Positions 3,002-33,440 of a stretch of 44,263 bases of DNA are shown in pieces. The notes beneath the pieces are model-generated. The model saw nothing but the letters and a program-made list of their open reading frames with translations, searched no databases and had not been told where the DNA came from. This stretch comes from Gonapodya prolifera JEL478 (lineage: Eukaryota > Monoblepharomycota > Monoblepharidomycetes > Monoblepharidales > Gonapodyaceae): contig KQ965898.1 in assembly GCA_001574975.1 (NCBI GenBank), forward strand, positions 1-44,263. Direction: 5' to 3'. Made by a program: the position numbers and the translations under genes. The number at the start of each line of letters is the position of its first letter. Position 1 is the stretch's first letter.

Positions 3002-3540
3002 TCATTCTACCACACTGGTGGCATAAACGGCTGCACCACACTGCTTGAGATACTCCGGCGTCATTAACTGATCATCCCATGCCATAATGTGTCCAAATCC
3101 GTCCGCGATTCCAATCGCTGTCTCATAGACAATCTGCAAAACTTGCAAGTGGTCCCTTCTGAAGAAGATTGCAATGTACCCAAGACGCCTGGTGTACGAT
3201 AAGCGCATGAGGAGCATGCATAATGCTGTTGTTCCGGGAATCTTGAGGTGATCGGTGGTTGTGACAATATCAGGGATGTGGAGGGAAGCGCAAAGGCGGT
3301 CCACATCCACCAGACTGAATCCGCCACATTACAAGTTAGATGAACAGAATAACTCTCACAGAGCATTGATCCATACTGGAAATGATAAAAATGATCTGCA
3401 TCGGTCAACGATTCCATGTCCAGCAGTTCCAAAGTGAGACTCTGGTGTGAAGGCGGCGCCGAGACCACCAAGAGGCTGAGAACAGCTGATATACGGACAG
3501 CAAGTGACGCGCCATCCTCAGCTGTATCTGTTTCCATCAC
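3002..3540 (-). pseudogene. PIF/Harbinger-type DDE transposase fragment (N-terminal)
   Basis: On the minus strand, joining 3540-3378 to 3315-3002 across a 62-bp GT-AG intron (3377-3316) gives a continuous frame: DHFYHF, then VDRLCASLHIPD, then ALCMLLMRLSYTRRLGYIA and a tail with WDDQ. This order (a substrate-contact helix, a 'LPD'-type turn, a short hydrophobic R-L-x-Y block, then a 'W' segment) is typical of the region just before the DDE catalytic core in PIF/Harbinger nucleases. The frame ends at a stop near 3002, and no catalytic D/D/E residues follow, so it is truncated. The frame extends upstream to about 3774 without recognisable homology. Could instead be a domesticated fragment; less likely. 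Confidence 0.6.
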
Positions 3541-3774
3541 CATCGGATGGTATTGCAGCATATTGGTACAGTAATGTGGGATGGTGCACGGTATATCTTT
3601 AATCTTGCGCAAACTAAAATATACTAAGTAATTTCTTGTGTGCCACGGTAAATTTTTTTGGTTGCGCAAACTCTCTATTTTTTGGGTAAGGACCACCATT
3701 TTGAAAACAGCTGTAACGATTGCAATACGAGCTTTCCAGCAGTACAAGTTCGCCTGTATAAACTTCATTGCCAC

Positions 3775-4279: not shown

Positions 4280-7200
4280 ATGAGTGGCCGAATGGAGAAT
4301 CCACGGGCCAGGTCCCGGTCTGTCGGGAGGATTCTTGGCATGCGGGATAATGCGGCTAGGGAAAGAGAACAGGCTGGCGGATGGGAGGGAAACATGGGTG
4401 GCTCTGGGTACGATTATGTGGTGCGAGGTCGCAGTGACAGCTCCGCTCCTCCACCCGAGTGGTATGTCCCAACTTCAAACGAACATGCCAACGGGAGAGG
4501 TCGGAATTCTGGGCACGGTCGGTCAGACTCTGGGGCGGGGTCAGGGTCTCGGGACATGAGGGACTATCAAGACTACCGACCAACGTCACAGTACAACGGA
4601 GGAGGAGACCCGCGCTCGCAGTATCAGCAATATCCACTGCAACAGCAATACTACGACCGTACGCCCTCGTCCCATCAGCAACCCTCCAACCAGTACTCCG
4701 CGGATGGGAATTATCCTGGTTACCCTTCCCCCAATCCTCCCCCAAGCGCACAACAAACACGCGCACCACCTCCTCGTCGGAAATCGGAGCACTCCGGTCC
4801 CGCAACTAGCCAGTTCGATCCATACGAGTCACCGCCCATCCGTGGGTACCAACAACAACCCCATCTACTCCCGTCCTCCCGCGCGGCATCGTCCAGCGCC
4901 GTTGCCCAAGCACCTCCGCAGAACTATCAGTTGCAACAGGCGTCCTCAACATATCCGCGCCAGCAAACGCAGCCCACTTCAGCTTCCTCCCGCGTCCCCC
5001 AAAATCCCTACCTCGCAAATCGCACATCCCAAGCGCCGAGCGCCCCGCCCCAGGTGATTGATAAATCGGCCTTTGCTTCCCTCTCCCAGCCTACTTTCCA
5101 GGACGACCCTCCCCGAAGATCGTCCTTATATCACCAACCTCAGAGTAACCCCTACCTGCAATCTTCGAATCGACCTCAAAATTCCAGCTATCCGTCTTCG
5201 CAATCTTCAGGCTACGGATCCTCGGAATCGTATTCTCAGCATCAGCAGAGTGGGCCGAACCCTCCGCGTCGTGGGTACCAGGAGCGATACCCCACTGCAA
5301 CAACGCATTCTGCTCCGACTTCCCGTCAGAACTCAGCCCCTTCACTCGCTGCTCCTGAAACTGGGGCGGTTGCTGGTGCTGATTTTCTGTCTTCGTTCCT
5401 CGGGAAGATTGAACAACGATCCCAAGGAGGAGACTCCAATCCGTACACCCGTCCCGGAACTGCTCCACCAACCTCTGCAACCGCTCAAACGCGCTCTTCA
5501 CGGACCCCACCGAGCACTCCATTAGTTCCATCTGATCGACCATCCAGCTTCTCATCTCCCGCGGAAGCAGCCGCTGCACGATGGAATCGGGCAGACCGAC
5601 TTTCTGGATCTTCTTTAGGAAGTCGGCTTTCTGTGGTGCAGGACTCTCAAGGATATGAGCGGCCACTTTCCGAATATGATCGTGATAGAACAAGTAGTCG
5701 CCCGCAGAAGGAGTCCACTGGAAGCGGGTCGCGGAGGCCAAATTCGGGGGACACCTCGCCCACCACATATGGCCAGAACCTCAGGGAACTCCGGCGGTCC
5801 GGTTCGGGACTTTCTACGAGTCGGGATGATGTTCGAAGTGCGACCCGAGGGCAGGAGCGGGACTCATCCAGCCGACGGGATCGACGTCTCTCGGACCGAG
5901 ACACCTCGTATCGGGAGTCTATCCATGACTCACGTTACGTGGGTCGTGAGGTGGATAGCAGACGGCGAGACCGCGATCCGGGATATCGGGATTCCACTTA
6001 TCGTTCGGACGGCCGGGAACTGGTGGACAGACCCTCATCTGTGCACTCAACCACATCACCCGTTTCGAGACACCCCGTCCCGACACATTCGAATTCCGGG
6101 TGGCCCTCGTCTTTGGCATCTACCACCCACTCGTATGCATCTCGCAGCAGCGCGAATCCTCTCCCATCGCCACCTCTGGCCGATGCGTCGAACACACCAG
6201 CTCCAAGTCCACCGACTCGTCGCCCGTTTGTCCCTCTGAGTCGCGCCCCGGCTCGCCTCGGCGCAACGACCGTCAGGCGAGACTTCACCCTCGATGGTCG
6301 CAAGACAAGTATCCGTGTAACAGTTAAGTCGAGTAAGACAGTAGCAAGTCTTTCGAGGGGCAAGCGCGAGTGGGGTGACTTGGCAGAAGAAGGGGAAGCC
6401 AAGGTGAGGACACTCTGTAATAAATTGTTACTCTCAGTATTTTGAAATCGGAACTGGATAATCTACAGCCCGGCTCCGATCCGCCCCCACCAATAATCAC
6501 CAACCCCAGTACACCATCAGCGGTACCCTATTCCATTCGTGCGCCGACTCCACCATCCCCTGTGCCGCTCGTCACATCACCATCCCAATCATCACTTTCA
6601 GACAGCTTGTCTAGTGGCACTGCCGTTCCACGCGAATCTTTTGTCTTGGATGTCGACGACGAGGAAGAAGATTTCGATGAGGATGAGGATGAGGATGAGG
6701 ACCTCACAGAGGGGGAGGACGAGTTGTGGGACAGGGAACGATCACGTGGACCCAGGAGTCGCTCTCGAGCTAGGAGCAAGAGCCGAGCGCGAAGTGTGGC
6801 TCCCGGGGGGACAGGCGGCGATAAAGAGGGTCGAAATATAGGGCGGAGATCGAGCTCGAAGAAGCCGGGGACTCGAAGTCGTCCAAAGTCCGCCGTGGCT
6901 TCCGAAGAGCCTAGAAGGTCCGGGTCAGGAAGCTTGAGCGATCTTTCCAGTAAGTCTTAGTCTCGCTGACATATCGGCCTTTTCTCAATGCCCCTCTTCA
7001 CCCCACCCTAGCTTCCCTCTCATCATTCCTTCCACATCCTACGGTTTCGCTCCTCGATGACTTTTCTCTTTTCCCGCTTTTGGGTGGTTCAAGCAAGCTC
7101 CTGGATTTAGAAGTTTCCAAACCTGGAACCGCAGAAAAGTCCACCTCGTCGTCCTCACTTTCCTTGGATATTGATTCAGTCTTTCGTGAACTTCAACAAT

Positions 7201-10200
7201 CTGCGAAGAATCTTGGTGTCCCTCTCTCACCCCTTCCAGGTGAAAGGCAGAAGGACATGCCCCTCTATCAGATAGACTCAAATCAGGATCCAACCCCTTC
7301 GTTCGCGATGTCCACATCACCAGCACTTCCAGAGATCTACCTCGGTCCTGACCTCGCTCTGAATCTTGATCTTGCGACGGGGAAGTCTGGTGCACTCGGA
7401 AGTCTTGAGGATTTGATGAGCGGCTTAGAGATGGAGCTAGAAGGTCTGATAGCCGCGGGGAGTTCAGGATCTAATGATCTCAAGCACACCGCGGACACCA
7501 CTACCTCAGCGTCAAAGACATCACCTGATGATGTATCTGCGGCGGTGGCAAACGGGATGAGTGAAGCGGATCGATCCAATGATGAGAAAGGACTTCGTCG
7601 ACAAACGTCAACCATGGGAAACCATATTGCTGGAGGACAGATATTTTCCCAGTCAATGGTGTCTCTGGAGCCTTTTACTTCGCCACCACCTCCCGAAAGT
7701 CTTCAGTCTCCTCCTCGCACGTTGCCAGAGGTTGTTGTCGTAGAGCCAACGGAATTGGGACTTGGGAATGGGCAGTTCGATCAAGGGCTCTCCGTTTCAG
7801 CGGAAGCATCTCCGGCAAGGTACCCTCCAGGAGCGATGCTCGGTGTTGACGACGCCACCATGCAATTGCGGCGGTCTCTGGTTGGAAGCCTGATGAGAAA
7901 ACAGAAGGAGCGTGATGAAACGTGAGTTCTTCATCGAGTACCCCTTCTGATCCGCCGTTGTCTAATCTGAGCTTTTTAAAAGTGGCAAAATTGGGAGGAT
8001 TGGAAGGGTACCTGGGGAGGAGCGAGTGGATCAGCTACTTTCCGTCCCCGCGGAGCCGCAGGAGTGAGTTCAATGTTTTTCTGCGTTGATCATCCTACCG
8101 TCAACGCTTCTTCCAGACCTTCATCCGTCTCACCGGAGTACACCACTCCCGTCTCTACTAGTTTGACCGAACAGGTGTTCAGCGGGACGAGCCAAGACGG
8201 GATCGCTGCTCCGGTTTCATCGAAAGGACATGTAGAGACCACTGTGACGCGCCGATCAAGTCGCATGTCTTCTCGTCGTGAGAAGGACGACGGTACCCCT
8301 GTTCAAACCACGGTCGCACCGTCGGATCTAGCTGACGAATCTATGTCCCCTACTTCATCTACTTCTGTGTCTGTCCATGCTGGTCCTAGCCGGTCACCTT
8401 CGAACCCTGGTTCGAGACGCATGAGAGCATCGCGCTCAACAGCGAGGACTCCGAGTCCCTCCATTGTGGGAACACCAGATGTGGCCAAGGTGGACGCGGA
8501 GACTACCTTTGATCTGCCCAATACGACAGCCGAAAACAACACCGGAGGAATGTCAGAGATATTAGCACCATCTCGCTCAAATTCATCCAGGACAACTGCT
8601 ACATTGACATCTGTGCTTTCTATCGAACATCAAGATACTGGTAGTGGAACCGTCAAAAGTGGGGAGGAAAGTATTAGTGGAACTATTGGACCAACTGGCT
8701 CTTTGGCACGCCGCAGTGCCAATAGGATCTCATCGCTTGAGGCTACTTCGTCATCTTCAAGAAGTACTCGCAAAGCGATCAGTCCAACTCCAGGTGTTTC
8801 AAGTCGAGCTGAGCCAACCATTCGCACAGGCAGTACCACCGATCCTCCGGAAAGTGTACCCCAAGAGCGCAAAATCGGAAGCGACCATCCGTCTCGAACC
8901 CGTCTTGCTGCGGCCCCACCCACTGGACCTGTTCCATCCACCGCTTCCCCCAAGCTTGGTCCGTCTCTACCAAGCGGTCTTCCACCCCCGCCCCCTCCGC
9001 CTCTCGCGGCTCCACCTCCGCCCCCAGGTTTACCTCCGCCCCCAGGTCCACCACCACCTCCAGGAGCTCCACCGCCTCCTATGCCTCCTCCACCTCCAGG
9101 AGTACCACCGGCCGGCCCCCCACCCCCACCTTCACTTGGAGCGCCCGGGGCTGCCTCAAATCCGAAGATGAGTTCTGGAGACGTGCAAGCGGAGCTCCTG
9201 AAGGCGATTAAGTGAGTTTAACGAGCGATCGCTTGTGAAATGCACATCCTCACACGTCTCCAAAGGGGTGGTAACGTAAAGGCGGGTCTTCGCAAAGTGA
9301 CTTCACGCCCGCCGCGTGAGGCGTTTGTTTCGTCGGTCTCTGGGGACTCTTCCAGCGAAGACATCCGACAGGCCCAGCTTGAGGAGCGGCAATCACTGTT
9401 TTTCGACCTCCTCGAGTACATGGAGGCACCCGAAGGCAACCTCGACGAACTTATTGACAAGCTCAACAAAAGCACAGCGACGGCGAGAGGATTCTTGTAC
9501 AGCATGGTGAAGCGCGGTTGGGTGGAGGGCTTCCGTGTTCTGGAGGCGGAGCTCCTTGCCGAGGTTGACAAGCAAGCGGCAGTCGTACCATCTGTTCCAG
9601 GCATTGATTCTTCGACTGTGGATCAACCCCCCCAGAGTTTCTCCGGGGGACCTCCACCCCCTCCGCCTCCACTTCCCCCTTCGCTCCCTGGGGGCTTCCC
9701 ACCGCCCGGACTTGAAACACCGTCCCTTCCCGGTGATTTTCCACCACCGCATCCGCCACCTCCACCCAGCGGTCCGCCACCGCCACCACCGCCACCGCCT
9801 TTCCGTGGACCTCCACCTCCTCCCCCGCCGCCGGGTGGATCTGCTCCGCCCCCAGCGCCAAAACCTGCTGCGACAAGCGGAGGAGATTTCCAAGCTGAAT
9901 TGATGGCGCAGATCAAGTGAGTTGCATGGACAACAATGTGTCAATCCCAGTAGACCAACTATCATGTGTTCCGTCGTAGGGGCGGTATAAAACTTCGAAA
10001 GGTCACTCCTCGTGATCCCGGATCGCCGAAGATCCCAAAGCCCAAACCTCGACCGTCAAAGCAAACTGCTCCAGTAAAACCGAAGATTTCCCCGTGCATC
10101 GTCTTCCCTGGTAGAGAGTGGACGAGCTCTATCACCCTCCCCGACATTACCCGGGAGAAGGCAGTGGCAACTCCACCTTCCAGTGTCGCGATGCGTGCCC

Positions 10201-11933
10201 ACATGTACCGCTTCGATCAAGCACCCATCACCGCTGGAGGTACCCAGCACAATCTGGACGAAATCATGCTTCTTCGAACAGATAACCTCCCTGTTTTTAT
10301 CCCGGGCTTTGACGAGGCCGAACCAAAGAAGGATGGATCTCTCCAAGCGCTTCAGGCTCATCAACTGTGGGAAGTGAGGAAACAGGCCTACGAGCAGTCT
10401 GACTGGGCGCAATGGTCGCTGTACCAGACCAAATTGACGGTAGCGGACTCGTCTCTTGTCTCACACTTTGCTCAGCTAGAAGCCACCGTTCAAGGCATGC
10501 GCGCACTGAGCGAGACTGTTCAAGCTGAGATGGACAGCGTGGAGCTCAACGCCCTGCGCAAGGCCGTCGGGTCAGTGCCCGTGAAAGTGAGAGAGCTGGC
10601 ACGTCAGTTGCAAGAGCAGACGGGGATCAAGATCCGGGAGGAGAGTGTAAAGCTCACTCCGGCGTTCATGAGACGGCTTCTCCGGGAGGCTGCGAAGGAG
10701 AGTCAAGGAGGGCGCCGGAGCCGGAGGGAGAAGCTCGTTTTGGTGGGACACCGATCAGATGATGAGGACGATGGAAAGAGTCCTCGAGACTATGCGATGC
10801 AAACGGACCCTACGAGCCCTATTGAGCGGCGACCAGGAACGCTCGAGCGGAAGCTGAGAGAGGGTACGTTGGAGCGACGTGCCAAGGAAGCACTGGGTGC
10901 TTCCTCGCGAGACGCCGCGGTGCGGTCGGATGTCGGAAAAGTCCCTACCGTTGTGGAGCATCGCCGGGGAGGAAGCTTGGGCATGAACGAGCCATTGCAT
11001 TCGAGGAAATTGTCTGGAGCGGGAGAATTGAGTCCGAAGAGTCCACCAAAGGAGGCGGCAATGTGCCCGAAAGAAGCAGCGACGAGCCCGAAGGATGTTC
11101 AAGCTGCGGATACACCTGAGGCGACGGGGGTTGCGGAGGTAGAGAGCGTCAAAACCGAGGCAGCTGTTCCAGCGACGAAGGAATCTGGTACGGGGATGGA
11201 ACAGACGAATCAGGTGGAGCGCCCGGTGGAGAGCATGGTCGCTGAGCAAGATGGTAATTCTGGTTCGGGTCCGGTTGTTCTACTGGATGCAGTGAAGGAA
11301 GACAGTGCACAGACGGTGGCGTTGAGTGGTGAGACTGTGGCGGTAGACACAAACACGGACGAAGTCGAGGTGCAGTCCACACATCACGATGAGGTCACAA
11401 AGGCTGCAACGAATCATGAGGACTCTGGCCTGGCTGAAGCGACCCTGAAAGACGGGGATTGGGCGGGAAACGCGGCCCCCTCCGTTTCCGCGGAACCTTT
11501 GTTAACCGAAGCTGCGTCACCCGTTGGCGATGGTGATGCACAAATCAAGGCACCTGACGTCCCTAGCGAGGCGATCACTTCATGTAACTCGCGAGTCAAG
11601 GCGGAAACTGCTGCGGCTGATGTACCTGGAGAGCCGGGCGATCTGCCTGCAGAAAATACAGCGGCTGAACCATTTGACGGTCCCACTAGCGTGGAATCTG
11701 CAGAACTGGAGTCTGCGGAGGTGGATGAGGCAGAACAAACGAATCCTCTGGATGATATCGTGGACGCTTCTCCAGAGGTGGCCAGTTCCCCGACTGGTGA
11801 AATGCAAGAAGTGTTGACCGAGGCTTTGGTTGAGGAGACTGTTGGAGAAGACGCAGCCTATGCCGACGCGCCGGGGCGGACTGATATCGCGTCCGCTGTG
11901 CCCTCGGCAGATGTTGCGACCGACGCTGAATGA
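4280..11933 (+). CDS. Large proline-rich tandem-WH2 protein (paralogue A, 2431 aa)
   Basis: Seven exons: 4280-6403, 6469-6949, 7012-7921, 7983-8063, 8117-9211, 9266-9916, 9980-11933; every junction is GT-AG and phase-consistent, giving 7296 coding bases. Order of parts: a Q/S/P/R-rich disordered head (1-640); a block with PFVPLSR and RRDFTLDGRK (647-708); an acidic run followed by an SR-rich run (about 770-840); LD-rich SLEDLMSGLEMELEGLI; polyproline 1 (about 1500-1540); WH2-1 (AELLKAIK..GLRKV, about 1557-1575); a helical block with LLEYMEAPEGNLDEL and ARGFLYSM (1603-1660); polyproline 2 (about 1690-1760); WH2-2 (AELMAQIKGGIKLRKV, about 1774-1790); a block starting FPGREWTSSI (1823-2023); and an acidic tail. 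WH2 motifs bind G-actin and polyproline binds profilin (known). No FH2, WH1 or KIND domain is visible. Role as a cytosolic actin nucleator or scaffold is inferred. Paralogue at 38675-42757. Confidence 0.9.
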
Positions 11934-14355
11934 AACGATATGAACTTCAAGTTACGGATGTATGAACATTGTCACGTGTTTCGAGGCAAAGTGCAGGTGG
12001 CAGTGGTGAGGTGGGTATTTCCAAATTGTGGAGTAGTACAATTAAGTATGATTGATTTTGAGTTATCTATTTGGACGTGTATTGGGATTGATAAGTTGAG
12101 GGCGATGAATTACTTCCATGATTGGAGGGTGGTGTTCACGAGAACGCTGCAATTTTTTGATTTGAACTAGTGGACGATTGTGGGAATTTCCGTTCGCCAC
12201 AATAAGGGTCCTTCAAAAGTCTCGACCGATGATTGGCTGGAAGCAAGAAAGTCGTGAGACATTTCAAAACCGCGAAAAGAAAATGTTAACATCTCGTTTT
12301 CACGACGTGCGATGAGGGCAAGGGGCAGACTTGCATTGAATCACCACTCAAGTACTTTTCGGAGGTCCTTCATTAGTGTAGCACAAATCCACGAGCGCTC
12401 GTACTGGACGCGATGAAGAGGGAGATCTACGTCTGAACGGCAACTACTGTGATTGCAACTCATCAGCGGTTCCAAAGAGTACTGCAGCGATCTTTTTGCC
12501 CGTTGGGATTCGTTTTTGAAAGTAATCAATGCATCTACACATTTTGTCTGATTAAATGTGATGCCTACAAGGACAACCAACCAGGGTTCGATATGAACGG
12601 GATGGGTTGGTTTTGTGTGAACAACACTCGGAATGGTTAAGTTGAGGGAGAGCACGCGCGGAACAACGCACCGTCACCTTCGTCTGTGGTCACCTACACC
12701 TTGCGCACTCTGGTCCGGCAGGGCAAGACCACCGCTACGGGTGCACGTAACCTATTGCTTACGTTTTTGACGTCTCCTCGCATGTTTCCACCTCGGGGAA
12801 CGACCTCAAAGCTGCCCTGAGCATGCAGGCAATCGGTTTCACCATCTTTGATTCTGCGAAGCGGTGGGCGGTGAGATTACTTGGCCCTTGGAACTGGAGC
12901 CGAGTCTGAGGCGCAAACCTTGGACAAGAGCTCTTCATCACTTTTTTTTGGACACGGCATGCAGGTTTGGACTATCCCCGACTGACGTCTTGGTTTCAGG
13001 GTGGTTCTCGTGTGGCTTGGTTCTGATTTGAACGGATGACGATGGGAATACATACCGGGTACTCTTGTCCCGTTTGGACTGCCCATGCTCATGATTATTC
13101 TTAGAACTTCTAGTCGTGCTAGAGACGCTCCCGAGTGTCGAAAAATTCTTTGGTGACGTCAGCTTAGCCATCGTGTCACCTTAGTCACAACAGGGATGCG
13201 TGGGTGATTGCAATACTGTTCCAAATAGGCCTCATGTACTCTTCTACACAACACGTCTTTGAACCACCAGCATACGCCACGGAACATTCCCCCAGTGGTC
13301 ATTGCTGTTGCTTATTTTTCGACGTCCCCGCCGCTCAGTCCTCCCTTTTGGACAGCTGTTTCCACTGCTGGGACGTCAACAATATGTTTCCTGCACGAGT
13401 TTTGTGGTGAAAATGACTGGACCGACCACCCTGCGTTTTTCGCACCTTCTGTTTGGACGCTGCTGAGCGTCGGTTTGTCATGTGTTCTCTTTATGGGCGC
13501 ATTCACCGCCTGCTGTGAAGGTTGAGCTGGCACTGCAGTAACATCATTCCCACATATCATATGTAGCCCCAGATTGTAGACATTGCACACCACCTTATTT
13601 CAACACGCACCAGAACTCTTTCTCCTTCTGAACGTCCCAGTGGAGGAAGCTCTCCATACAGGGACCCTGTTTTGATCCGTGCCAGAAACGACCAGCGCAC
13701 GTTCGCCTCATCCGTCGCTGGATATCTCTTGGTTCTTCCGGGCATTCAACTTCGCTCTAGCACCCCTGGGTGTCATGTGGAATTTTGATGTGAGCCGTGG
13801 ACCGCGGTATCGGGATAGACCGTCGCAGTCGACACCGCTGCCCAGTGCCCTTGAGCTTTCTTTATTTTTGATGCCGCATGCGGGGTTGGGCGATCCCCAA
13901 ATTCCGGCCAACTTTCAAGGTCCCGGTACTCCTGGGACTCCGCATTTAATGATCGGGGCGAGCGCAGTACCGAGGTGAACAGTCTAGCACGAGAGCGCTG
14001 TGGTAACGGAAAAGGACCTGGACCTCCAAGTGTGCGAATCTTTTCGCGGCCTGACTGCGTTCCCCTCGTGCGGATCCTGTCGTATGATTTTTATTATTTA
14101 ATGACATTCGCATAAGCTCAATACATTGCTCGTTGTGCACAGTTGCCTGAGGAGGCTGAGTTAATGAGTTGCGCATTGCGAAGGAATCAACGAGCACCCT
14201 GAGCGTCGATCGACGTACGAAGGAGAAATAGAAGAAGCTACTCACGGGGTATGCAGACGGAAGTAGAAAGAAACCGAAAGCTCTATATCATGTCGGTCCA
14301 CATTCACTCCCTGCAAGTTCGATGGTTCTCGAAATAGCCCCAAGAAATACGAGGT
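11934..14355. other. 2.4-kb gene-free region
   Basis: Many short frames on both strands, none with a family signature, sustained coding character or convincing splice logic. It contains one copy of a dispersed repeat (12703-12795, listed separately) and G/C-rich stretches that look like decayed repeats. The first few hundred bases are presumably the 3' flank of the large WH2 gene. Confidence 0.45.
12703..12795. repeat. Dispersed direct repeat, copy 1
   Basis: Shares the words GCACTCTGGTCC, GCTACGGGTGCACGTA, GTCTCCTCGCA and GTTTCCAC in the same order and spacing with 16992-17091. Identity is roughly 75-80 % by eye. Family unknown. Confidence 0.6.
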
Positions 14356-14362
14356 TATAAAT
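14356..14362 (+). promoter_or_regulatory. TATA box of the small secreted-protein gene
   Basis: TATAAAT lies about 100 bp upstream of the ATG at 14458, a usual distance for a fungal TATA promoter. Confidence 0.5.
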
Positions 14363-14457
14363 GTACCTTACGTCCTCCCTCGCGCCGACATGTTACCTCT
14401 CCGTCCGAGCTCTCGTTCTCTTGGCTTTCTCCGGTTGACATCCAGTCACCACCCACC

Positions 14458-14734
14458 ATGCGCATCTTCACGTGCATTCTCATTCTCGTCTTTCCACTGC
14501 TCATCAGCGCCGCGTCTATCGCCCCACGTGACAAAAATGATCGCTGCCCTCCGCCGGATGGATGTTCAGGGGTACGTTCTGTCAACGGTGCTAAGCTGCG
14601 GTTAAGTCATATCCCAGACGATACGTCACTGTATCTCACTCCTTCTCGCTTTTCTCGGTTCCCAGACTTGCGTCGGAACAATTTCAGGTCCTGTTTGCCG
14701 TACACCCAATAAAGGCAGTAGACTTCCCCTGTAG
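14458..14734 (+). CDS. Small secreted four-cysteine protein (60 aa)
   Basis: Two exons, 14458-14571 and 14666-14734, join in phase 0 across a 94-bp GTACGT...CCCAG intron. The ATG has a good context (CCACC before it). Residues 1-19 are a textbook signal peptide: a positive start (MR), then the hydrophobic core CILILVFPLLISAAS. The mature part is about 40 residues with four cysteines, in the contexts NDRC, DGC, TCV and VCR, plus several Pro and Gly. Such short cysteine-paired proteins are exported and are often effector-like or antimicrobial in fungi (known in general); here the function is unknown. Without splicing the frame reads into a cysteine-poor tail, so the spliced form is preferred. 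No family recognised. Confidence 0.62.
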
Positions 14735-15008
14735 GAGGATCAACAACTATGAGTCCACAATTTGCAAGAATTGAATCATGACCCGCGCTTGGATTGTAAC
14801 CGATGGAAACGGTTGACAGACTTTGTAACTCAGGCATGGTGTGCAATGGCGACATGCCGACACACAATTAGACGACGAAATGGGGAGGTGTTCCCCGTCA
14901 GCTGCGGGTACTGGCGACGGTGTGTCATTTTTTTTGAAACAAATGAATATCACAATCAAGACTCAATTACAGCCAACACTTTCTTCTACCGGGAGTTTAT
15001 CCCCATCA
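14735..15008. other. Intergenic stretch
   Basis: About 270 bp between the convergent 3' ends of the small secreted-protein gene (+) and the SDR gene (-). Nothing else identified. Confidence 0.4.
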
Positions 15009-15874
15009 CTACGTAAACAGTACAGTCACCACATCCCTCTTCTCCTCCAACTCGGCAAACTTTGCCGCCACATCGTCGGGATCAATGGTGGCCGAGCCTT
15101 TCCCATCATCCCACGCCGTACCCTTGACCTGCCCCGCGACCGTCACCTCACCCGCGTAGATCCCCTTGGTAGCGAGGGTGGCGTTGAGGAGGAACACGGT
15201 CTTGCGCTGTGCGGCTTTGGAGATTGCCAGCGTCGCGGCGTTGAAGGAGATGGAGGCTTTCACAGCGTCGTCGTGTTCGAGCTGGAGAGGGCGATGCGGC
15301 GTCAGGTAAACTGCAGTCGATCGATGATGCTAGGCGGGATAGTTTACAACTCACCCCGAATGCTCCACCAGTCACGAGCACGGCCCCTTTGGTGGCTTCC
15401 AGGTCTGGCAGAACTGCATGCACTGCCACGAGGACGTTGCTGACAGAGATGGCAAAGTTCTGGACGAGGAGGTCTGCAATCTTGTCGTCGAGGAGACCGG
15501 CACCCTGCCCGTAGGCGTTCCTGAGAGAGGGGTGGATCGACACAGCGATAGTCGATACAATTGAGAAATGAGTTAGAAAGAAAGAGTCTCTGCGACAAGC
15601 GAACCCACCAGTGCAGAATCTTGACTTTTGCCCCACCGAACGCCGCCTTTATGTCCGCCAGCACTTGCTTGACAGCGTTTGGGTCCGTCAGATCCGCGGC
15701 AAACCCTTTAGCGTCGATGCCGTCCTTCGCAAGCGCGACCGCTCCCTCGTCGACTCTTGCTTTTGTGCGTGAAACAAGCGCGACTTTGAGTCCCTGTTTG
15801 CCCCACTTCTTGGCGACAGAGTTGGAGATGCCGGGACCGAAGCCCGCGACCACGATGATGTTGGCAGTGGGCAT
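15009..15874 (-). CDS. Atypical short-chain dehydrogenase/reductase (234 aa)
   Basis: Exons 15874-15609, 15520-15355 and 15281-15009 with GT-AG introns of 88 and 73 bp give 705 coding bases. The start MPTAN is chosen because the Rossmann strand begins there; an in-frame ATG exists 23 codons upstream at 15943. Family signs: the dinucleotide-binding loop VVAGFGPGIS (9-18), then a VSRT strand end typical of NADP(H) preference, the ADLTDP acidic turn, WNAYG where NNAG is usual, and LVTGG in strand 5. Odd point: the active-site region reads TLAISKAAQR, so the Lys of YxxxK is kept but the Tyr is replaced, and the catalytic Ser position (GGAFG) is also lost. It may bind NAD(P) without classical catalysis or use another residue. 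Substrate unknown. Confidence 0.85.
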
Positions 15875-17521
15875 TGGCGTGTGATGGTGTGCGCGTGGAT
15901 GCGCCTGTATGTGCTTTTGTTCGATGGCCGGGTAAAAGTACAACCGGCTGATACCGGCTTATGAAACCTGACGTGGGCAGCTTGCATTCTGTCGCAACAA
16001 TGAAATGTTCCCATTTATGAGTGCATTACAAAATGTGCTGCAATACTCTCCAACTGACAGGAAGATACTCACATCGAACAAGTAAAGCGTTTCCAACGGT
16101 CCCAATAATTGGCTGGCGTCAAGTACCTCCCAAATTAAAAAATAAACATCAATACATGCAACCTTCTACATAATGATGGTGGACTACGACTTGATAATTG
16201 AGTAATCGGTATCCATTCGTCGACAATCGACCTCCACTGACGGCCAGTTGCGCGGATGCATGATGCCTTTGCTCCACCTTGCACCCACACCCGGCCTTCC
16301 TTTTGTCACGAGCTCAAGCGTCTCCATCAAAGAAGCACGCTCGGTTCCGTCATTGCCCATCGCTAGTCGCTCGTCCTTTGTGGTCCCAGACGCCTTGCGC
16401 TCCAGTGCCGCGTCACGTCTCGCCCACGTGGGTCGTGGACCCTTTTGGACGTACCTACGGCCTGCTCTCCGGAGCCGGCGCGACATGGGTTGTGTCACCA
16501 TCACCAAAGCGTTCTGTGTCGCCAGGCGACTGATCGCACCACACATCACATCATCGACACTCCCGCCACTGTACACTCATCTGCATCGTTCTTGCTCCTG
16601 ATCTTGCTTGTTTTGGGCGTTCCGAGTGCAGAAACAGTTCCCTTCTGAGCCTCTTTTGTCGCGCGGTGACGACAACGGAGCCCCATGGCCGGTCGCGAGC
16701 GTTTGTTCCGGGTTTTCCACCCCGTCCTGACATTCACGTCGCGGCGCTTCACAAACGCATCAGTCTCTTTTGAACTAAGTTTTTTAAGACGTTCCCAGCG
16801 CAGGAACTCCCCCGGTTCTGGTGCGCGATGATGTCACGAGAGTTCAAAGGGCGTTTGTTCCGTTGCGAAAACAACTTATAGCAAACTTGATCCACCCACT
16901 CGCCCCTTAAAATTTTCATGTCCATCTCACAACCGCGTGTGTCACTGTATAATGCGCCTCAAAAGACCAAGTCATCACAGTACACGGGCAGCGGCACTCT
17001 GGTCCCATGGGCAACCACTGCTACGGGTGCACGTACTCGCACTCCCATAGCATACTTTTTTGGATGTCTCCTCGCACGTTTCCACGGGGCACTTCTGCGT
17101 GAGTTGACGTCAGCACAAGTCGGGGTTCGCTGTACCGCATTCCCAAACTGACTGGTTGACGTTCTCCCTACCTGCTATTGCTTGGACGTTTTGACTATTT
17201 GAACGTCCTCCCGCCCCCTCGCTTCAGCCGCGCCTGAGCGGGCCTGGTACGGTGATGTCAAAACAGTTATTCATTGCTTGTCGGGGTCCACTTCTGGTGG
17301 ATCACGTACAAAGCTCTCGCTTGAAACAATAGCTTCTGACTGTAGTGTATAGAAGTATAAATTGAAAATAAAAACATGGATCAAAATCAATTTTGAAAGC
17401 TCCGAGGGGTCTGGGTGAGCTGCGATCATCGCCGGCTAGGTTGCTGACAATGCACCTTCTGTGCGGGAGCACGCACAAGATGCTAATGTAGTTCTCCCTT
17501 TCGAATCAATTGTTGTTGCAT
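15875..17521. other. 1.6-kb gene-free region
   Basis: No supported gene. It holds the second copy of the dispersed repeat (16992-17091). Part of it, next to 15874, is the promoter side of the SDR gene. Remaining short frames lack any family feature. Confidence 0.4.
16992..17091. repeat. Dispersed direct repeat, copy 2
   Basis: Same-orientation partner of 12703-12795: both carry GCACTCTGGTCC, then GCTACGGGTGCACGTA, then GTCTCCTCGCA and GTTTCCAC. Small indels separate the copies. No ends or target duplication identified. Confidence 0.6.
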
Positions 17522-18045
17522 CCGTCTCGACTCGCTGAGATCGACAGACGAAATCAGGTAGCAGCACCCCTTGTCCGCAGGCAGCTGGTTGGCTTTCGCG
17601 CAGCAGAGGCCGAACACGACGCTTGTGTAGGATGACTCCGGCAGCAACTTTGCATAAAATCTTATGATTTTTGCGACTGTCCCGCTCTCGAGACGCCAGT
17701 GATTCTCGTTGAAGAAGCAGGTCTCGACGACAAGAGTGGCCCTGCTTCGGTCCAATTTGTGAGGAGTTTCGAGGCGTGGCGCCGTCGCAAATTCAGCGGA
17801 TCGAACTTCGAGCTTCAGCGCACAGCACTCTGTGATATGTGCCATGTGCGCTGTCGCTGTCTCGAGGTCTGGCGTCGCTCCGTTCGCGAACGGCGGAGGT
17901 GTGCTTTGCGCTATGGTGGCTTCGGTCCAAAACCTGAGGAGCTTTCTCTGGCTGCTCCGGGCGTCTTCCGAAGCTCTCCAACCTCGTCAGCAGGTACAAG
18001 AGTAGTGGCGAGGTGCTCTATGTATTCCGTGGACCTTACTGGAAC
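17522..18045 (-). repeat. 524-bp inverted repeat, left arm
   Basis: Reverse complement of 20999-21522 with no gap (paired positions always add up to 39044). I counted about 12 mismatches, so roughly 97-98 % identity. The outer end is CCGTCTCGACTC. Open frames occur in both arms, but their products match no family I know and their frames are not preserved by the mismatches in a clearly coding way. Confidence 0.9.
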
Positions 18046-20998
18046 CTTCTCTTCCGCTCTGCAGGGAAATTTGCACCAATGTGTTGGACACAAGTCACCA
18101 CCACGATCACATTCCTTTCGCATTCCCATGTATCCACTCCTTATATCGCTGTGAAAACTCTTTTCAAGCAAAACTTTGTCAGCGGGTGTAGCCGCAGCGC
18201 ATTGGCTCTCTACAAGTGTCGCTATGCTCAAATTATCGCATATTGTGTCGAATCTGCCACTACCGTCATTTTCCTGCATCATGTAAATTCAAAGCCAGTG
18301 ACAAAGACAACAGTCCTATTTCGTAGCTTTATACATCGCATAAATGGTTGAACTAATTACTCACACTGCACAAACTGAACCGTCAATACCATCTTGCCAC
18401 GCCTCTGCACAGTGCGGTAAGCCGGTCACCACATCCCCAAACATCTCTCCTCGCATTCTTTGTCACAGACAATGAGGTCGCAATTCCTGGGACACTCGCC
18501 AGCCCTCGGGTCCAGATGTACAGTACCTAAACATGAAACACTCACCGTTCATGTAACCGACGCGTCCTTCAAATTGGCAACCGTGGTGCCGTTGATACTG
18601 CACTTTTGTAAGATGGTCAGGCCTTCTTCTTGTCTTGGTACCATCCACACACCCATACTTCTGTACTCACCACGAATCAAAACTGCTTGGTCAGATGCTC
18701 CCTAAATAAGTTGCGAGATAGATCCGGCTGGCGCACAAGGAGGATCTTGGAGCGCTGCGTTGGTGGTTGAGTTGCCTTCTCCGCCCATCTGCTGTCCCCG
18801 CCAGCTTGAGCGGCGCCATCATCACCAGGAGGTTGGTTGTCCTTGTGAGAAGGTCATTAACCTGTTGAACAGGGGGAGAACAGATATTGTTAGCGATTTT
18901 GTGCGATGACATGAGAGGTGGGCCAGTGAGCGTCACTCAGCAAGGCAGCAAGTGGATTCACCTTGGAGATCAGCCACATGTGCATTGTGTACGCATACGG
19001 TGACCAGTTCCCTCACCCATTTCAACTGGCTACGCCCAACGTCCTCTCAAATGACCACCTCCGACACGTCTCTCACCCAGGGCACAGCACTCGTTTATTC
19101 TCCCTCCACGCCCACAAGCCCACATGTACCCACCTCGCGTCACGCGAACACACCTGGAATTCTCCACACCCATTCAACCTGTCGGCCTGCTGATAGTCAC
19201 CGTTCAACGTAAACCATGTGACTACGCGGTGGATTCTTCTGCAGGCTAGTCGCAGCGGGATGAGAGATTCGACGGGGATGTGAGAGACGTTGAGTGGGGT
19301 GGATTACTGCAGCTTTAGATACCCGTCGACAAGAGAGGGAGTAGAAGGGGGGATTGCGAAGAGGGGGAGGACGGGAAAGTGTTGAGAGTTTGGTCGTCGC
19401 AATCAAGATCCCCGGCCGGCCCACCTCCATTCCGGAAACCCGACACCCCACCCCAACTCAGTGTGCACAACGACTCAATTCTTTTGAGCCCGCCAATCCT
19501 CCAGCCACCTTCCACGTCGCCTCCGCCATGAACTAAAACTGGCGGTAACACTTCCCATGTTGACCAACAATGCCTCCCTGCCGTACTGCCCGACACTCAC
19601 CTTCAACCTCACTGCATCGCACTCTATTCCACAGCCATCACACTACCCGGTTTCCTCGCCGTATTGTGGCTGGCCCTCGCCAGGCGTTTGAGGTTATTCA
19701 GACCCGCGCGCACGTCGAGACGTTGAGACGACGGTGGTCAGGGCTGGGAGGACGCCGCGTAACATCATCGGTGAGACGCTCTGAATCATGCAGCACAGAT
19801 GGTTGTGAAGAAGTCTGCGTAGGAAAGGATGGTCAAGATTCCAACGTTGTCGAAAGGTGAACCTTGGCCACTTTCATCCCGGAAAGCATCGCTGGGTTGG
19901 AAGAGAACTCACGCGTTTGTCTTCCTGGATCCTCTCTGCTGTCTACCGTCAGCGATTCCAAGACGGGGATTGGTGAGCAAGAGAGGGAGGTCCTCCAGTG
20001 AAGTTCCCATACCGAGGAAGCCTGGCGCACCACGAGTCCATCGCCCGGAGTGATTCCTTGTCAGCGAATTCCCAGGGGGTTTCGACACTGCCGAAGACGC
20101 GTCTTTAGGGGGTGTTGTTGAGGGATGGGTTTTCACACATTTGGTGCTGCCCACAAAGACAATAATCTTCAATTGTAACCATAAAAACGAAAATATGCGA
20201 ATTGAAAAAAAGAGCACGTATTCCATCACCAAAATTCGTTCTACAGCAAGTTGTTTCGCCTGTCTTGTTGGGTGAAGCAGTGACAGGCGGTGCAGTTTGG
20301 TAAAAACAGGAATGGGTTTGAGACTGCAACGTTCGTCTGGGAACGAATGCTTGTTACCAAGCAGGACAGGTCGGGAATAATGAAATGTGAGATTGTAAGG
20401 TGATTTTTCCACATCCGACTTCTTGTTTATCAAGGCAGTCGGTGTCCGTTGCCACCACGTCAGATAGGACTCATAAGCGAGAAAATGGTTCACGTAATAA
20501 AGCAGTACCATAGCGCCAGGCATGCGAATCCCAAGTTTCGAGTGTGGCGACGCACCGCCGGGGGACAGGGGGGAACAAGATGGCACACTTCCGCGACGCT
20601 GTTTGCGCGACTTCGGGGCCGATTGCGCGTGATTTTCGACGGTGCCACGCGTCTCAACTCCTCACCGCTGGGACCGCAGCAGGACACACACTCACAATTC
20701 TATCTTTGGGTAGTGAGTACGCCGCCCTGTTCGCACCCCACTCCACTCACGATTGCGGCATCCCCACGCTCGCTCCTGACGCAGTATACTGACACACACT
20801 GCCTTGCGTCGACCGCTGACTGACCGACCACTGCATGGTTCCGCCACCCCACACCCGCCCCACCCCACTCCGCCCACCACCCGCAGATAACAGTATCGGC
20901 GATGTCGGAGCAAGAGCGATGGCGGAGGCGTTTGGTACCGTGACGAGTGGCGCGAGTGGGACTGCGGGTGGAGCGAAAGTGGACCGGTCCCTGTCGAC
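18046..20998. other. 2.95-kb spacer between the inverted-repeat arms
   Basis: No confident gene. There are short frames on both strands, none with a transposase, integrase or polymerase signature. A T-rich patch lies near 20150-20220. If the arms are terminal repeats this would be the body of a non-autonomous element of about 4.0 kb. Confidence 0.4.
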
Positions 20999-21522
20999 GT
21001 TCCAGCAAGGTCCACGGAATACATAGAGTACCTCGCCACTACTCTTGTACCTGCTGACGAGGCTGGAGAGCTTCAGAAGACGCCCGGAGCAGCCAGAGAA
21101 AGCTCCTCAGGTTTTGGACCGAAGCCACCATAGCGCAAAGCACACCTCCGCCGTTCGCGAACGGAGCGACGCCAGACCTCGAGACAGCGACAGCGCACAT
21201 GGCACATATCACAGAGTGCTGTGCGCTGAAGCTCGAAGTTCGATCCGCTGAATTTGCGACGGCGCCACGCCTCGAAACTCCTCACAAATTGGACCGAAGC
21301 AGGGCCACTCTTGTCGTCGAGACCTGCTTCTTCAACGAGAATCACTGGCGTCTCGAGAGCGGGACAGTCGCAAAAATCATAAGATTTCATGCAAAGTTGC
21401 TGCCGGAGTCATCCCGCAGAAGCGTCGTGTTCGGCCTCTGCTGCCCGAAAGCCAACCAGCTCCCTGCGGACAAGGGGTGCTGCTGCCTGATTTCGTCTGT
21501 CAATCTCAGCGAGTCGAGACGG
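20999..21522 (+). repeat. 524-bp inverted repeat, right arm
   Basis: Partner of 17522-18045. The outer end is GAGTCGAGACGG, the exact complement of the left outer end; flanking bases differ, so the symmetry stops sharply. No matching target-site duplication is visible directly outside the two ends. Confidence 0.9.
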
Positions 21523-27723: not shown

Positions 27724-28086
27724 AGGGGTGTGGGATGGGGTGGGCCGGGGTTGGTTTGGTGGAGAAGGGGGGAGGTGTAAACGGGAACTGCGAAGAAAGG
27801 GAGGACAGGAGAGGAATGATGTTGGGTAGGATATATAGACTGATAGATTCATCACGTGTTGTTCTCGTCATGTTCACTGCTTTAGATCATAAATGCTTTT
27901 TCCGTACTCTTGCGGTCCCCTTACTGATCAATCGTTCAGTGGTAACGTAATACGTTTATGCAAAAAGCCTGGATCCAGCACTTCATCCCTGCAGGTACCG
28001 AAACAGTCGCAAGTCCGCCGTCCGATCTACCACCGTCCGCAAGATGGACGTCACCGTTTGGGTATCATAAATCAATGTCGTTCGAC
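27724..28086. other. Intergenic stretch
   Basis: 3' flank of the crotonase gene; GGATATATAGAC near 27830. No gene seen. Confidence 0.35.
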
Positions 28087-28510
28087 TTACCGATAGCATG
28101 GCATTGGCCATACCTGCCAATACCCGTCTTTCCTCAGTTCTGCTTGGCCCGTCACTGAGAAAGGTGGGTAATCTCTGCACCCCGACCCCATTTCGACATC
28201 CAAATATTTCCCATTTCCGCCCTCGTAACTCATGAACTGGCATTTCACTTCCTCGCTCAAAAGATTGCACGAAGGGCTTCTGTACAAAGGCGGCGCACTC
28301 ATGATGTACTCGTACACCACGCCATCTGCGATGGGAGTGTAGTAGTGTGCCATCGTGAAAGGTGCTGTGTGCGTGCCGGACACATAGGAGCAGTTCCAGA
28401 GCACAACGTTCTCGACATCCCCCCCACCGGGTCAACAGATTGTCTTGCGGCAGCTGTAGTGGCGAGTAGTGCGACGCCAAGACAGTATGCGAGCAGCTCA
28501 TGGACCTGGA
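28087..28510 (-). pseudogene. Possible small secreted cysteine-containing protein, frame-broken
   Basis: On the minus strand a hydrophobic stretch (ELLAYCLGVALLATTAAA, about 28500-28450) looks like the core of a signal peptide. About 30 bases later a different frame carries a tyrosine/cysteine-rich protein (NCSYVSGTH..., with further Cys in SCNLL, KCQF, GCRDY and PCYR before the stop at 28087). The two frames would join if the run of seven C at 28419-28425 (seven G in sense) had one more base. So this is either a slipped homopolymer or a broken gene. No ATG was found in the signal-peptide frame close by. No family recognised. Confidence 0.35.
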
Positions 28511-28728
28511 TGGAAGGCGGTTGAGATGCCACACGGTCCCACGCATCACAAGATGAAAGTAAATCACCTGCGAGGATTGGACATGTCAAAGCGGCTCGGT
28601 GGGTGGGAACCGACATTTTCTGAAAAACGGGTAAAAGCAGCCACTCGTCGAAGGTCACGGGGGATTCAGAAATGCGCTCAACAAGTCATCGGAGGATCCA
28701 CTCCATCCGTGCGCGCACACTCGCAGGC

Positions 28729-28747
28729 GGGGGGGGGGGGGGGGGGG
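28729..28747. repeat. 19-base poly(G) run
   Basis: Nineteen consecutive G after AGGC and before TAATATATT. The true length cannot be trusted from sequence reads. The surrounding 28560-29077 shows no gene. Confidence 0.9.
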
Positions 28748-29077
28748 TAATATATTGCTGCGTCGCAATTTTTAAAGCTTGACCATCTATTTGCGATCCA
28801 ACCACTTCAGAAAAGTAAATACAAGTGATTGACATTATCTTGCAAATTATTCCCTATATTTACTTAAGTCCCAAGAACATACGTATGTACGGCGGCCCGC
28901 CCACGGTACCACACGGAAAACACTTCACCGCTTCCCCATCCACGACAACTCTCACGCCGCACTTACTCCCCATCTCGTCCATCTCCGTCTTCAGTCTCAC
29001 ATCGGCTCACAGTTTGCCGTCCGAACAAGACGATGTAGCAGCGGTGTGCCAAAGAGTGCTTTCAACTGGCTCTCCCT

Positions 29078-30399
29078 CTACTTCTTCTTATGCTTTTTCC
29101 GCCCCGACTGGTGCTGTGGGGCACTTTGCATGACCCTTGAGACCGGCTTCGGGACAGTCACGGCGGCGGAACCCTTCCAATCTTTAGTGTCGCACACGCC
29201 CCGGTCGTAAAGAACAGTTTTGATGCTGCAAAGGCGAAGTATCCATTGGGTAGGTCGAGCTCGGAGCATGACTGATATGACAGTGATGGCGCATGCTAGC
29301 ATGTCATCGAGTTCGGTGATGTCACGACTCCAGGCCCGTTCGTCCACCTGATCCGTATGTTCAACCGAATCTCCAATACTTCGCGACAGGGAAAGACTCT
29401 TAGAAATGTGCTGAGGGCGGATTTGACACTGGCCGGCTTCTTCTTGCAAACCTCCCTAAGGTCCAGAACATGTATCTCCACACGAAGATTTCGTACACTG
29501 GGGAGTACGGTCTCAGACAAAAGAGTAGGCAGGCACAAGTGGCTTTCGGGGTCCGCGCTCGCTCCGATTGCGATCACATCGAGCTGGGATAGGTTGGGAA
29601 AGAGAGTCGCGGTCTGAAGGAAGTGGATGGTGTGTTAAGGTGCAAGCACGGCGCTGACCAGCGCCGCAATGATGAGTGACTTGACGTGCCGTCGAAATTC
29701 TTCGGGCGCATGGACCTCTGCAGCTGCGACGTGGTCAGGGTTTTGGATTACCATATCCACCAAATGTTCCGCCCCAGGCAATCGTTCCAAAAGGATATCG
29801 AGGCCGGTTGGTGAGAGTGACAACGCGATGTGATACGAGACGAAGATTTTCACAGTATCGAACTTGGTTGTCGAAGGCATGTCCTCCCAGAACAGATCCG
29901 AGATGTGAACGTCCCCGAGTTGAAGCTGCGACACCCGGCGAGTCTTCATGGAGTCCACCAATCGATGAGCCATGACTCTCTTGAAGGACACCGACTCTAA
30001 TCCCGCGATGCACACTTGTTTGATGACGAGCTTCCATCGCTGGAAGGGTAGGTTTGCCTTGACGGCAACCTCGCCCACTTTCTCGAGCAACGTGCCTTCC
30101 CAGAACGCCGTACCATCGCTCCCCAGGACGGTATCAGGAGAAACAGATACACGACATCAGATGCCGGTCCATAACCTAACTCCTGGTCTTGTGCGGTGCC
30201 CAAATCGAACGCATCCCACTGGTCCAGAACATGGAGACCCGCAGCGTCCCTGGTAGGGACTGAGTTCAGAAACACAAGGCACGAGATGCCTGTTCCGTTT
30301 TCGGCCGATCCGGGAAGGGCACCATGTCGCGACGGAGAACAAGGTTTTCGGGGGAAGGAGGCGGAGAAGGCGGACGATCTCGACTGGGTGGCGATTCAT
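29078..30399 (-). pseudogene. F-box/LRR-type protein, frame-broken
   Basis: Minus strand. An F-box-like start lies at 30399 (HPVEIVRLLRLLPPKTLFSV, followed by a Trp), the helix pattern by which such proteins bind Skp1 in SCF ubiquitin ligases. Next come segments with LGSDGTAFWEGTLLEKVGEV, long Leu-rich repeats, and, after a clean 45-bp intron (29658-29614, phase 0), LTATLFPNLSQLDVIAIG and VLPSVRNLRVEIHVLDL, which resemble LRR strands. The product ends in a Lys-rich tail (stop at 29078). Frame changes are needed at about 30255, 30150 and 29440, without splice sites that would explain them, so the copy looks dead. If the last change is ignored the frame ends at 29296. Assignment to F-box rests on pattern only. 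Confidence 0.45.
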
Positions 30400-31320
30400 G
30401 AATGTCGATGGTAAAAGGGTATCGAGTTTGGAAATTCTGGAGAATTGGTGGGTGGGCAACCGAACGATCGAATGCGTTCCCCGCTTGATTTCTGAACCCA
30501 CGGGAAGAAATGAAAAGCGCTTCATTATCATGAAAATGTGGAGCGTATATAACTTTTGAGCTCGTTCCTCTTTTGTAATTTTGCATACATGAACGTTTTC
30601 TAATTCATTGCCAGCAATTTGGGAGGGGAACTTATTTACCCTTGGCATATCACGAACGCAGGTGAGATTTGACGGGCACGAGTTCGAGAACTAGCACCCA
30701 TAGTTTTTGAACTGGGAAGTACTCAACGAAGAGCACACCGGGTTGGAGCACGAAGGAAATTGGAGAGATCAGAGTCAAAGCACTGCGGAAACCGGATGCG
30801 CCTTGGAGGACGAAGCCAGAGCAAACGACGATATGTTCACAGACTTCGGCACCCCGCACGTCGAAGAGCTTACGAACCTGTACATTCGATGTCGCAAACA
30901 ACTGGTGGTTCCGCTGTGCGGCTGTGGATCAGATCCCCCCCGGAGAAACGTGAAGAATTCGACCGTTGCTTCAGCGAATGGAGTGCCGGCGGAGAAAACA
31001 TCAACGACCGGAGGCGCGAAGAGTTTTTATGCCGAAGGACTATGAGTTGGTGATAGACAGACATAAGTTCAATATGACGGCATGTTGTGTTCTAGTTACG
31101 AGATCTTCTGTAAATCACGTGTTAAATTGACTTTTTTTAGTTCGCACTTCCATGTGCATCAATGTAATGATTTGGCATCGATCGCAGATCCTTTGCCAGA
31201 GATACAAACGCCTATCTCGACCATGTAAACAAATCCTTACGCCACCATCTTCTCGCTCAACGTCCTCCACCAGCCACGCCGCGTCGCGCTAACGCCTCTG
31301 AATGTCCAACCCAACTTCCC
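30400..31320. other. 0.9-kb region without an assigned gene
   Basis: Open frames on both strands at 30650-31060, without family signature. A minus-strand frame at 30901-30650 rich in Val/Leu could be an exon of a lost neighbour, but no splice chain could be fixed. Confidence 0.3.
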
Positions 31321-33196: not shown

Positions 33197-33440
33197 CTGT
33201 GTCGGTGGAGTGTCAGTCTCCCGGTCCATAACACCATCTTCCCATTCCATCGGCCCCTCACCCTTCTTCCAGTTTCCTCATCCTCCCTGTCTCTCGTCTC
33301 CACGGCGTCTCACCGCTATCGCTGCATCCCCAAGCTCTCGTTCCCACAAGTACTACAGGCAGTAATATCCGTCGTCCCCCAAACCGCTCCTTTCCCCGTA
33401 GTCCCTACACGCACCAGGCAATCCCAGTCCAAAATCCGAC

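Follow-up and report, generated by a model that had tools for sequence, protein, structure and literature searches.

What kind of protein does the gene at positions 4280-11933 of this DNA encode, and how does it relate to known actin-assembly factors? The window, by which we mean the whole stretch analysed, comprises 44,263 nucleotides of Gonapodya prolifera JEL478 (contig KQ965898.1, positions 1 to 44,263 of the forward strand; C168 in our numbering). An earlier note on this DNA had proposed that the gene (gene 1) and a second one at 38675-42757 (gene 2) form an undescribed fungal family of tandem-WH2, polyproline proteins, acting as an actin nucleator or a profilin-actin scaffold. Under the reading that we favour, and to which we give an even chance of being correct, both genes are members, with one further paralog, of a family of scaffolds for actin assembly that would act in clusters to deliver profilin-actin and support filament elongation.

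Gene 1 lies on the plus strand and consists of seven exons (4280-6403, 6469-6949, 7012-7921, 7983-8063, 8117-9211, 9266-9916, and 9980-11933), which once spliced encode exactly the 2431 amino acids announced in the earlier note, with one stop codon, at the end. Its six GT-AG introns (53-65 nt) interrupt the frame when it is read unspliced. Gene 2, on the minus strand, also has seven exons (42757-42365, 42299-41441, 41383-41258, 41196-40815, 40720-40287, 40230-39666, and 39602-38675), separated by introns of 56-94 nt, and encodes 1228 amino acids. Both splice models were built ab initio, without transcripts. The two proteins follow a common order, namely an N-terminal block, a polyproline tract with a first WH2 (WH2a), an inter-WH2 block, a second polyproline tract with its WH2 (WH2b), and a C-terminal block of about 208 amino acids. 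The two polyproline-WH2 modules, the conserved block between them, the block of about 200 residues after them, and their presence in the second gene are thus as initially described. Indeed, BLASTP aligns gene 2 with gene 1 at 60% over 334 columns for the last WH2 and C-terminal block (E = 5e-99), and at 54% over 115 columns for the first WH2 and inter-WH2 block (E = 3e-31). The N-terminal block had gone unnoticed; it spans residues 647-734 of gene 1 and 66-154 of gene 2 (BLASTP, E = 7e-10), with residues 647-708 encoded at 6218-6403 (plus strand) and residues 66-122 at 42392-42562 (minus strand).

Both conserved blocks of the WH2-containing part detect the same six genes in the genome. Besides genes 1 and 2, they comprise a gene 3 on contig C85, and all three recur on contig C48, within about 120 kb; the family thus consists of three paralogs, each present twice. 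In gene 3, a single polyproline run and a single WH2 accompany the inter-WH2 and C-terminal blocks, and the stretch between these blocks lacks any further polyproline or WH2. Its upstream frame shows two short matches to gene 1 and none to gene 2 at E <= 1. Because this paralog has a single WH2, tandem WH2 motifs do not define the family, and the label proposed earlier fits genes 1 and 2 only.

Polyproline precedes each WH2 directly in genes 1 and 2. Runs of at least five prolines number nine in gene 1 and 24 in gene 2, all within tracts preceding a WH2, and the frames read for gene 3 contain one, upstream of its WH2. In gene 1, these runs fall within residues 1488-1537 (8976-9150, edges approximate) and 1693-1753 (9651-9833), on the plus strand; in gene 2, they fall within residues 422-549 (40928-41372) and 706-890 (39755-40365), on the minus strand, with one intron inside each tract. 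The second tract of gene 2 is an imperfect 39-bp repeat (39810-40141), whose C48 copy is near-identical by eye. Two short motifs were also noted outside the modules. One, DLMxGLExELxGLI, is shared by gene 1 (residues 993-1028) and gene 3 (L012, around 3510-3620) at 47% over 36 columns (E = 6e-4, two-protein search), and is reminiscent of paxillin LD motifs. The other is hydrophobic-acidic (e.g. ILIDVDE), lies upstream of the WH2 part in all three paralogs (gene 1 residue 766, gene 2 residue 186, and L011 and L012), and resembles a SUMO-interacting motif.

The WH2 motifs of genes 1 and 2 are WH2a (residues 1554-1575; 9180-9299, split by intron 9212-9265) and WH2b (residues 1771-1789; 9885-10004, split by intron 9917-9979) on the plus strand for gene 1, and WH2a (residues 577-597; 40690-40846, split by intron 40814-40721) and WH2b (residues 910-928; 39578-39697, split by intron 39665-39603) on the minus strand for gene 2. 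Against a cut-off of 23.1 bits, the Pfam model PF02205 (WH2) scores 29.3 on the whole gene 2 protein, which is above it, and 18.9 on gene 1, which is below. As single spliced peptides, gene-1 WH2b, gene-2 WH2a, and gene-2 WH2b score 22.0, 21.8, and 20.4 bits, while the WH2 motifs of the genome's own WIP and WASP, tested alongside, reach 50.4 and 28.9 bits. All five family motifs read [LF][LM]xxI[KRQ] ... L[KR][KQ]V. A WH2-like pattern occurs twice in gene 1, twice in gene 2, and nowhere else in either protein, and none of 5000 residue shuffles of gene 1, nor of 5000 of gene 2, reached two copies. The C-terminal half of gene 3 contains one copy, a number reached by three of 5000 shuffles. This control is weak, because the pattern was written after the motifs had been seen.

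A phase-2 intron cuts each of the five motifs within the codon that follows the isoleucine. Among the second copies, a GTGAGT donor is found at that codon in four of the five motifs, the fifth being unmatched by the pattern used. By comparison, the PF02205 matches of the genome's WIP and WASP each lie inside one open frame. The common intron site suggests that the five motifs derive from one ancestor, and that a symmetrical exon was gained in the two-WH2 genes or lost in gene 3. The residue preceding the isoleucine is alanine in gene-1 WH2a and in both gene-2 motifs, glutamine in gene-1 WH2b, and glutamate in gene 3. According to PMC8102491, alanine at this position is associated with tighter actin binding and is present in all three WH2 motifs of Cobl, so that tight binding would be predicted for gene 2 and looser binding for gene 3.

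The C-terminal block is encoded at 10077-10700 (plus strand) in gene 1, where it is 75% identical to that of gene 2, and at 38882-39511 (minus strand) in gene 2. Identity for this block ranges from 54 to 75% among paralogs and reaches 93.8, 95.7, and 98.7% between copies, with ratios of nonsynonymous to synonymous substitution rates (dN/dS) of 0.02-0.12 in the three copy pairs; such constraint indicates that the genes are probably functional. The inter-WH2 block, at 9351-9551 (plus strand) in gene 1 and 40420-40632 (minus strand) in gene 2, shows 58-71% identity among paralogs (72% in another comparison of gene 1 with gene 2) and 94-100% between copies, with dN/dS values of 0.05 and 0.07 for two of the copy pairs. 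Values among paralogs were saturated or nearly so and were not used.

Neither block could be placed firmly in a known family. For the C-terminal block, none of the six members had a credible Pfam match (best E = 0.027), and a PDB sequence search gave nothing convincing for either block (best E = 0.37 for the C-terminal block, 0.27 for the inter-WH2 block). The inter-WH2 block matched HTH_IclR in six of six rows, which represent three genes twice rather than six independent tests (best E = 2e-4; the first row scored 20.5 bits for a cut-off of 22), and MarR weakly in two. On whole proteins, HTH_IclR scored 16.2 bits (gene 1) and 15.5 bits (gene 2), below the cut-off. A predicted model of the block consists of three helices and a two-stranded hairpin (H-H-H-E-E; mean predicted local distance difference test [pLDDT] 73.8, predicted template modelling score [pTM] 0.41), arranged in the order expected of a winged helix; on this model, the block may be one. 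Structural searches leave this fold unconfirmed: Foldseek returned 21 matches at E <= 10, none meaningful (best E = 4.9), and VIA-align 28 chains, three with Z >= 2 (best 2.5) and none significant. Two of these three chains (2w25 and 2efn) are Lrp/AsnC-type regulators, but the matches are too weak to be of use and were left aside. Scans of contig collections with both blocks yielded 53, 53, 98, and 104 pattern matches and no relatives by tblastn in any of the four; the collections are viral, bacterial, and archaeal, and are uninformative on other fungi. The claim of an undescribed family is based on Pfam, PDB, and a limited paper search.

How might such proteins work? In the reading that we favour, the polyproline tracts would capture profilin-actin, and the WH2 beside each tract would take the monomer over and hand it to barbed ends. 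Our guess is that dimerisation, clustering, or attachment to a partner is provided by the winged-helix-like and C-terminal blocks, allowing many modules to work together; the two blocks are our best candidates for clustering or localisation, and any binding targets are guesswork likewise. G-actin binding, profilin recruitment, monomer transfer, and elongation are each inferred from the known biochemistry of WH2 and polyproline. According to PMC5753033, proline-rich and WH2 segments that lie side by side in WASP-family proteins pass actin from profilin to the WH2, and when clustered on a surface they behave as distributive polymerases that accelerate elongation. Transfer of this kind would fit the repeated polyproline-WH2 units and their varying number. 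Besides the position of the tracts directly ahead of each WH2, support comes from the six profilin matches in the genome, which include matches above the cut-off. Further support lies in the gene layout common to genes 1 and 2, in the PF02205 score of gene 2 and the near-threshold scores of three single motifs, in the recurrence of both blocks in six genes, and in the constraint on the C-terminal block. As proline runs (9, 24, and 1) and WH2 motifs (2, 2, and 1) differ in number, the paralogs are probably tuned differently. A bolder version would make the family a class of fungal actin polymerases or nucleators in its own right, distinct from formins, WASP, Ena/VASP, and Spire, with variable-number polyproline-WH2 modules on a winged-helix and an unknown C-terminal domain and with paralogs graded in profilin-actin loading; it is more doubtful and is put forward tentatively.

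Several observations weigh against delivery and elongation by these proteins. None of the five family WH2 motifs exceeds the PF02205 cut-off on its own, and two of them, the gene-3 motif and gene-1 WH2a, have no match at all as single peptides; the latter is a divergent WH2 missed by Pfam. Nothing in the analysis points to oligomerisation or membrane binding, and the ligands of the polyproline could be SH3 or WW proteins rather than profilin. For the gene-3 copy pair, dN/dS in the inter-WH2 stretch is 0.62, with few changes. A structure prediction for the inter-WH2 and C-terminal blocks of gene 3 (10-row alignment) gave no usable fold for the C-terminal block (mean pLDDT 41.6, pTM 0.25) and was discarded.

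The main rivals make different use of the same parts. Nucleators such as Spire or Cobl are considered to depend on WH2 motifs that keep monomers close together. The products of genes 1 and 2 could likewise hold a pair of monomers on their two WH2s, or four on a dimer, as a filament seed, a function that would agree with the presence of two WH2s and with the alanine that PMC8102491 ties to tight binding and to Cobl. We consider it unlikely: WH2a and WH2b are 195 residues apart in gene 1 and 312 in gene 2, the intervening sequence includes a conserved block and long polyproline, and gene 3 has a single WH2. It is because of these distances that we prefer a delivery and elongation scaffold to a Spire/Cobl-type nucleator; between the two functions suggested in the earlier note, the scaffold therefore fits better and the nucleator is weakened. 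A WIP/verprolin-like adaptor, whose polyproline would bind SH3 proteins and its WH2 actin while the C-terminal block docks a partner such as WASP, myosin-I, or a formin, appears similarly improbable. The polyproline-WH2 layout is common to WIP, but WIP exists here as a separate gene, on contig C2, with one WH2 above the cut-off; this WIP frame contains S[DE]LP[AP]P, which we take to be the pattern of WIP's WASP-binding motif, whereas genes 1 and 2 and the C-terminal half of gene 3 do not.

The weak similarity of the inter-WH2 block to HTH_IclR and MarR could also hint at a nuclear or chromatin-linked regulator, with the block as its DNA-binding part and the WH2s acting on actin in the nucleus. 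With whole genes 1 and 2 below the HTH_IclR cut-off and no significant match in the fold search, we regard such a role as very improbable, the more so as winged helices often bind proteins.

The host and the surroundings of the locus provide further context. Fungal_trans has 72 matches in the genome and none in 14 prokaryotic control genomes, in agreement with the fungal origin assumed at the outset; IFT57 is above its cut-off on contig C16 (three of 14 controls match, none above the cut-off), and chitin synthase, a weak marker since four of 14 controls pass the same cut-off, has 36 matches. Together, these sequence matches indicate a flagellated fungus. Among the window frames scanned (20 of 75), a short-chain dehydrogenase exon and a TFIID 20 kDa subunit exon lie above cut-offs, and an enoyl-CoA hydratase-like gene and a MYND finger below them, which suggests no functional link between neighbouring genes and the actin family.

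The window aligns with C48:1-54.5 kb piecewise in the same order, at 70-89% identity and subtelomeric repeat included, apart from an inversion (window 13.6-17.0 kb, more precisely 13600-17050, versus C48 24.4-30.6 kb). Stretches at 17.1-21.5 kb and about 27.9-34.3 kb have no counterpart in the C48 pieces compared; C48:16000-25999 holds 4353 N bases. This collinearity suggests that the window contig is a divergent haplotype of that chromosome end or else arose as an old duplication. The genome is not doubled throughout, since WASP, WIP, and over-cut-off IFT57 matches are each found on a single contig. Paired protein-family matches of equal score or similar position on contigs C24 and C147, and on C22 and C23, suggest other divergent-haplotype regions in the assembly. 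Within the first unmatched stretch, window 17522-21522 is bounded by 524-bp inverted repeats (17522-18045 and 20999-21522, 98% identical) and has the appearance of a mobile element, of a kind not recognised. When 19000-21500 was used as a DNA query, it matched nothing beyond itself and the opposite repeat arm. The second (27900-34280) has flanks that match C48 in order, as for another insertion or deletion between copies. At 184-717, a 146-bp tandem repeat is followed by telomere-like (CCCTAA)n, resembling C48 762-1377. The contig begins in a subtelomere, with the telomere repeat not at its very end.

Fungal actin biology has been read mostly from yeast, where the assembly factors are formins, WASP, and WIP. 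If our favoured reading is true, three related genes whose products have conserved domains of their own would open a further path to filament building alongside these factors in a flagellated fungus, a path possibly lost by yeasts (a speculation, as one fungal genome was examined). The paralog series, with its differences in WH2 number, polyproline dosage, and residue before the isoleucine, would then be a natural experiment on the tuning of profilin-actin delivery.

How, finally, does the family compare with known systems? As stated in the earlier note, domains diagnostic of other actin regulators are not apparent: at E <= 1, Pfam detects no FH2 (PF02181), WH1/EVH1, PBD/GBD, KIND, or tetramerisation domain in genes 1 and 2. 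Among the titles listed in a limited literature search, none describes a protein combining WH2 and a winged helix; queries joining the two with actin in fungi or with actin nucleation returned no paper, nor did queries on WH2 and actin in zoospores or on WH2 domain-containing proteins in Basidiomycota. Like WASP/WAVE proteins (Las17-type), the family places polyproline before WH2, and the spacing between isoleucine and basic motif is the same in gene-2 WH2a as in the genome's own WASP. The latter, on contig C9, combines WH2 with the only WH1 match of the genome and a C-terminal acidic run ending in tryptophan, whereas genes 1 and 2 have neither a WH1 or PBD match nor any tryptophan in their last 80 residues, and gene 3 has one there without the acidic-tryptophan pattern; the two conserved blocks are present instead. 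An acidic stretch with tryptophan does occur in gene 1, at residue 791, far upstream of the WH2s. The passages of PMC3298513 in which Kollmar and co-workers discuss fungal WASP-family proteins describe nothing like the present family.

With WIP/verprolin, the family shares polyproline, WH2, and long stretches without predicted domains, but it has a conserved block after the WH2 and, going by the pattern above, no WASP-binding motif. Genes 1 and 2 resemble Spire and Cobl in having more than one WH2, yet these are far apart, without a KIND match, and single in one paralog; a genome-wide KIND search gave no match, as in the controls, and so does not measure absence from the genome. A passage of PMC11231147 states that SPIRE has not been identified in fungi. 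Formins also carry long polyproline (FH1) ahead of a conserved C-terminal block, but FH2 matched none of the six C-terminal blocks at E <= 10 (HMMER filters drop most matches above 0.1) and is found elsewhere in the genome (17 exon matches, 15 above the cut-off, spread over seven contigs). Ena/VASP proteins likewise have polyproline feeding a monomer-binding motif, and differ in the EVH1/WH1 and tetramerisation domains unmatched in genes 1 and 2. As read from sequence, the family thus lies outside WASP, WIP, formins, Spire, and Ena/VASP by their defining domains, and is by its anatomy a WH2/polyproline actin regulator.

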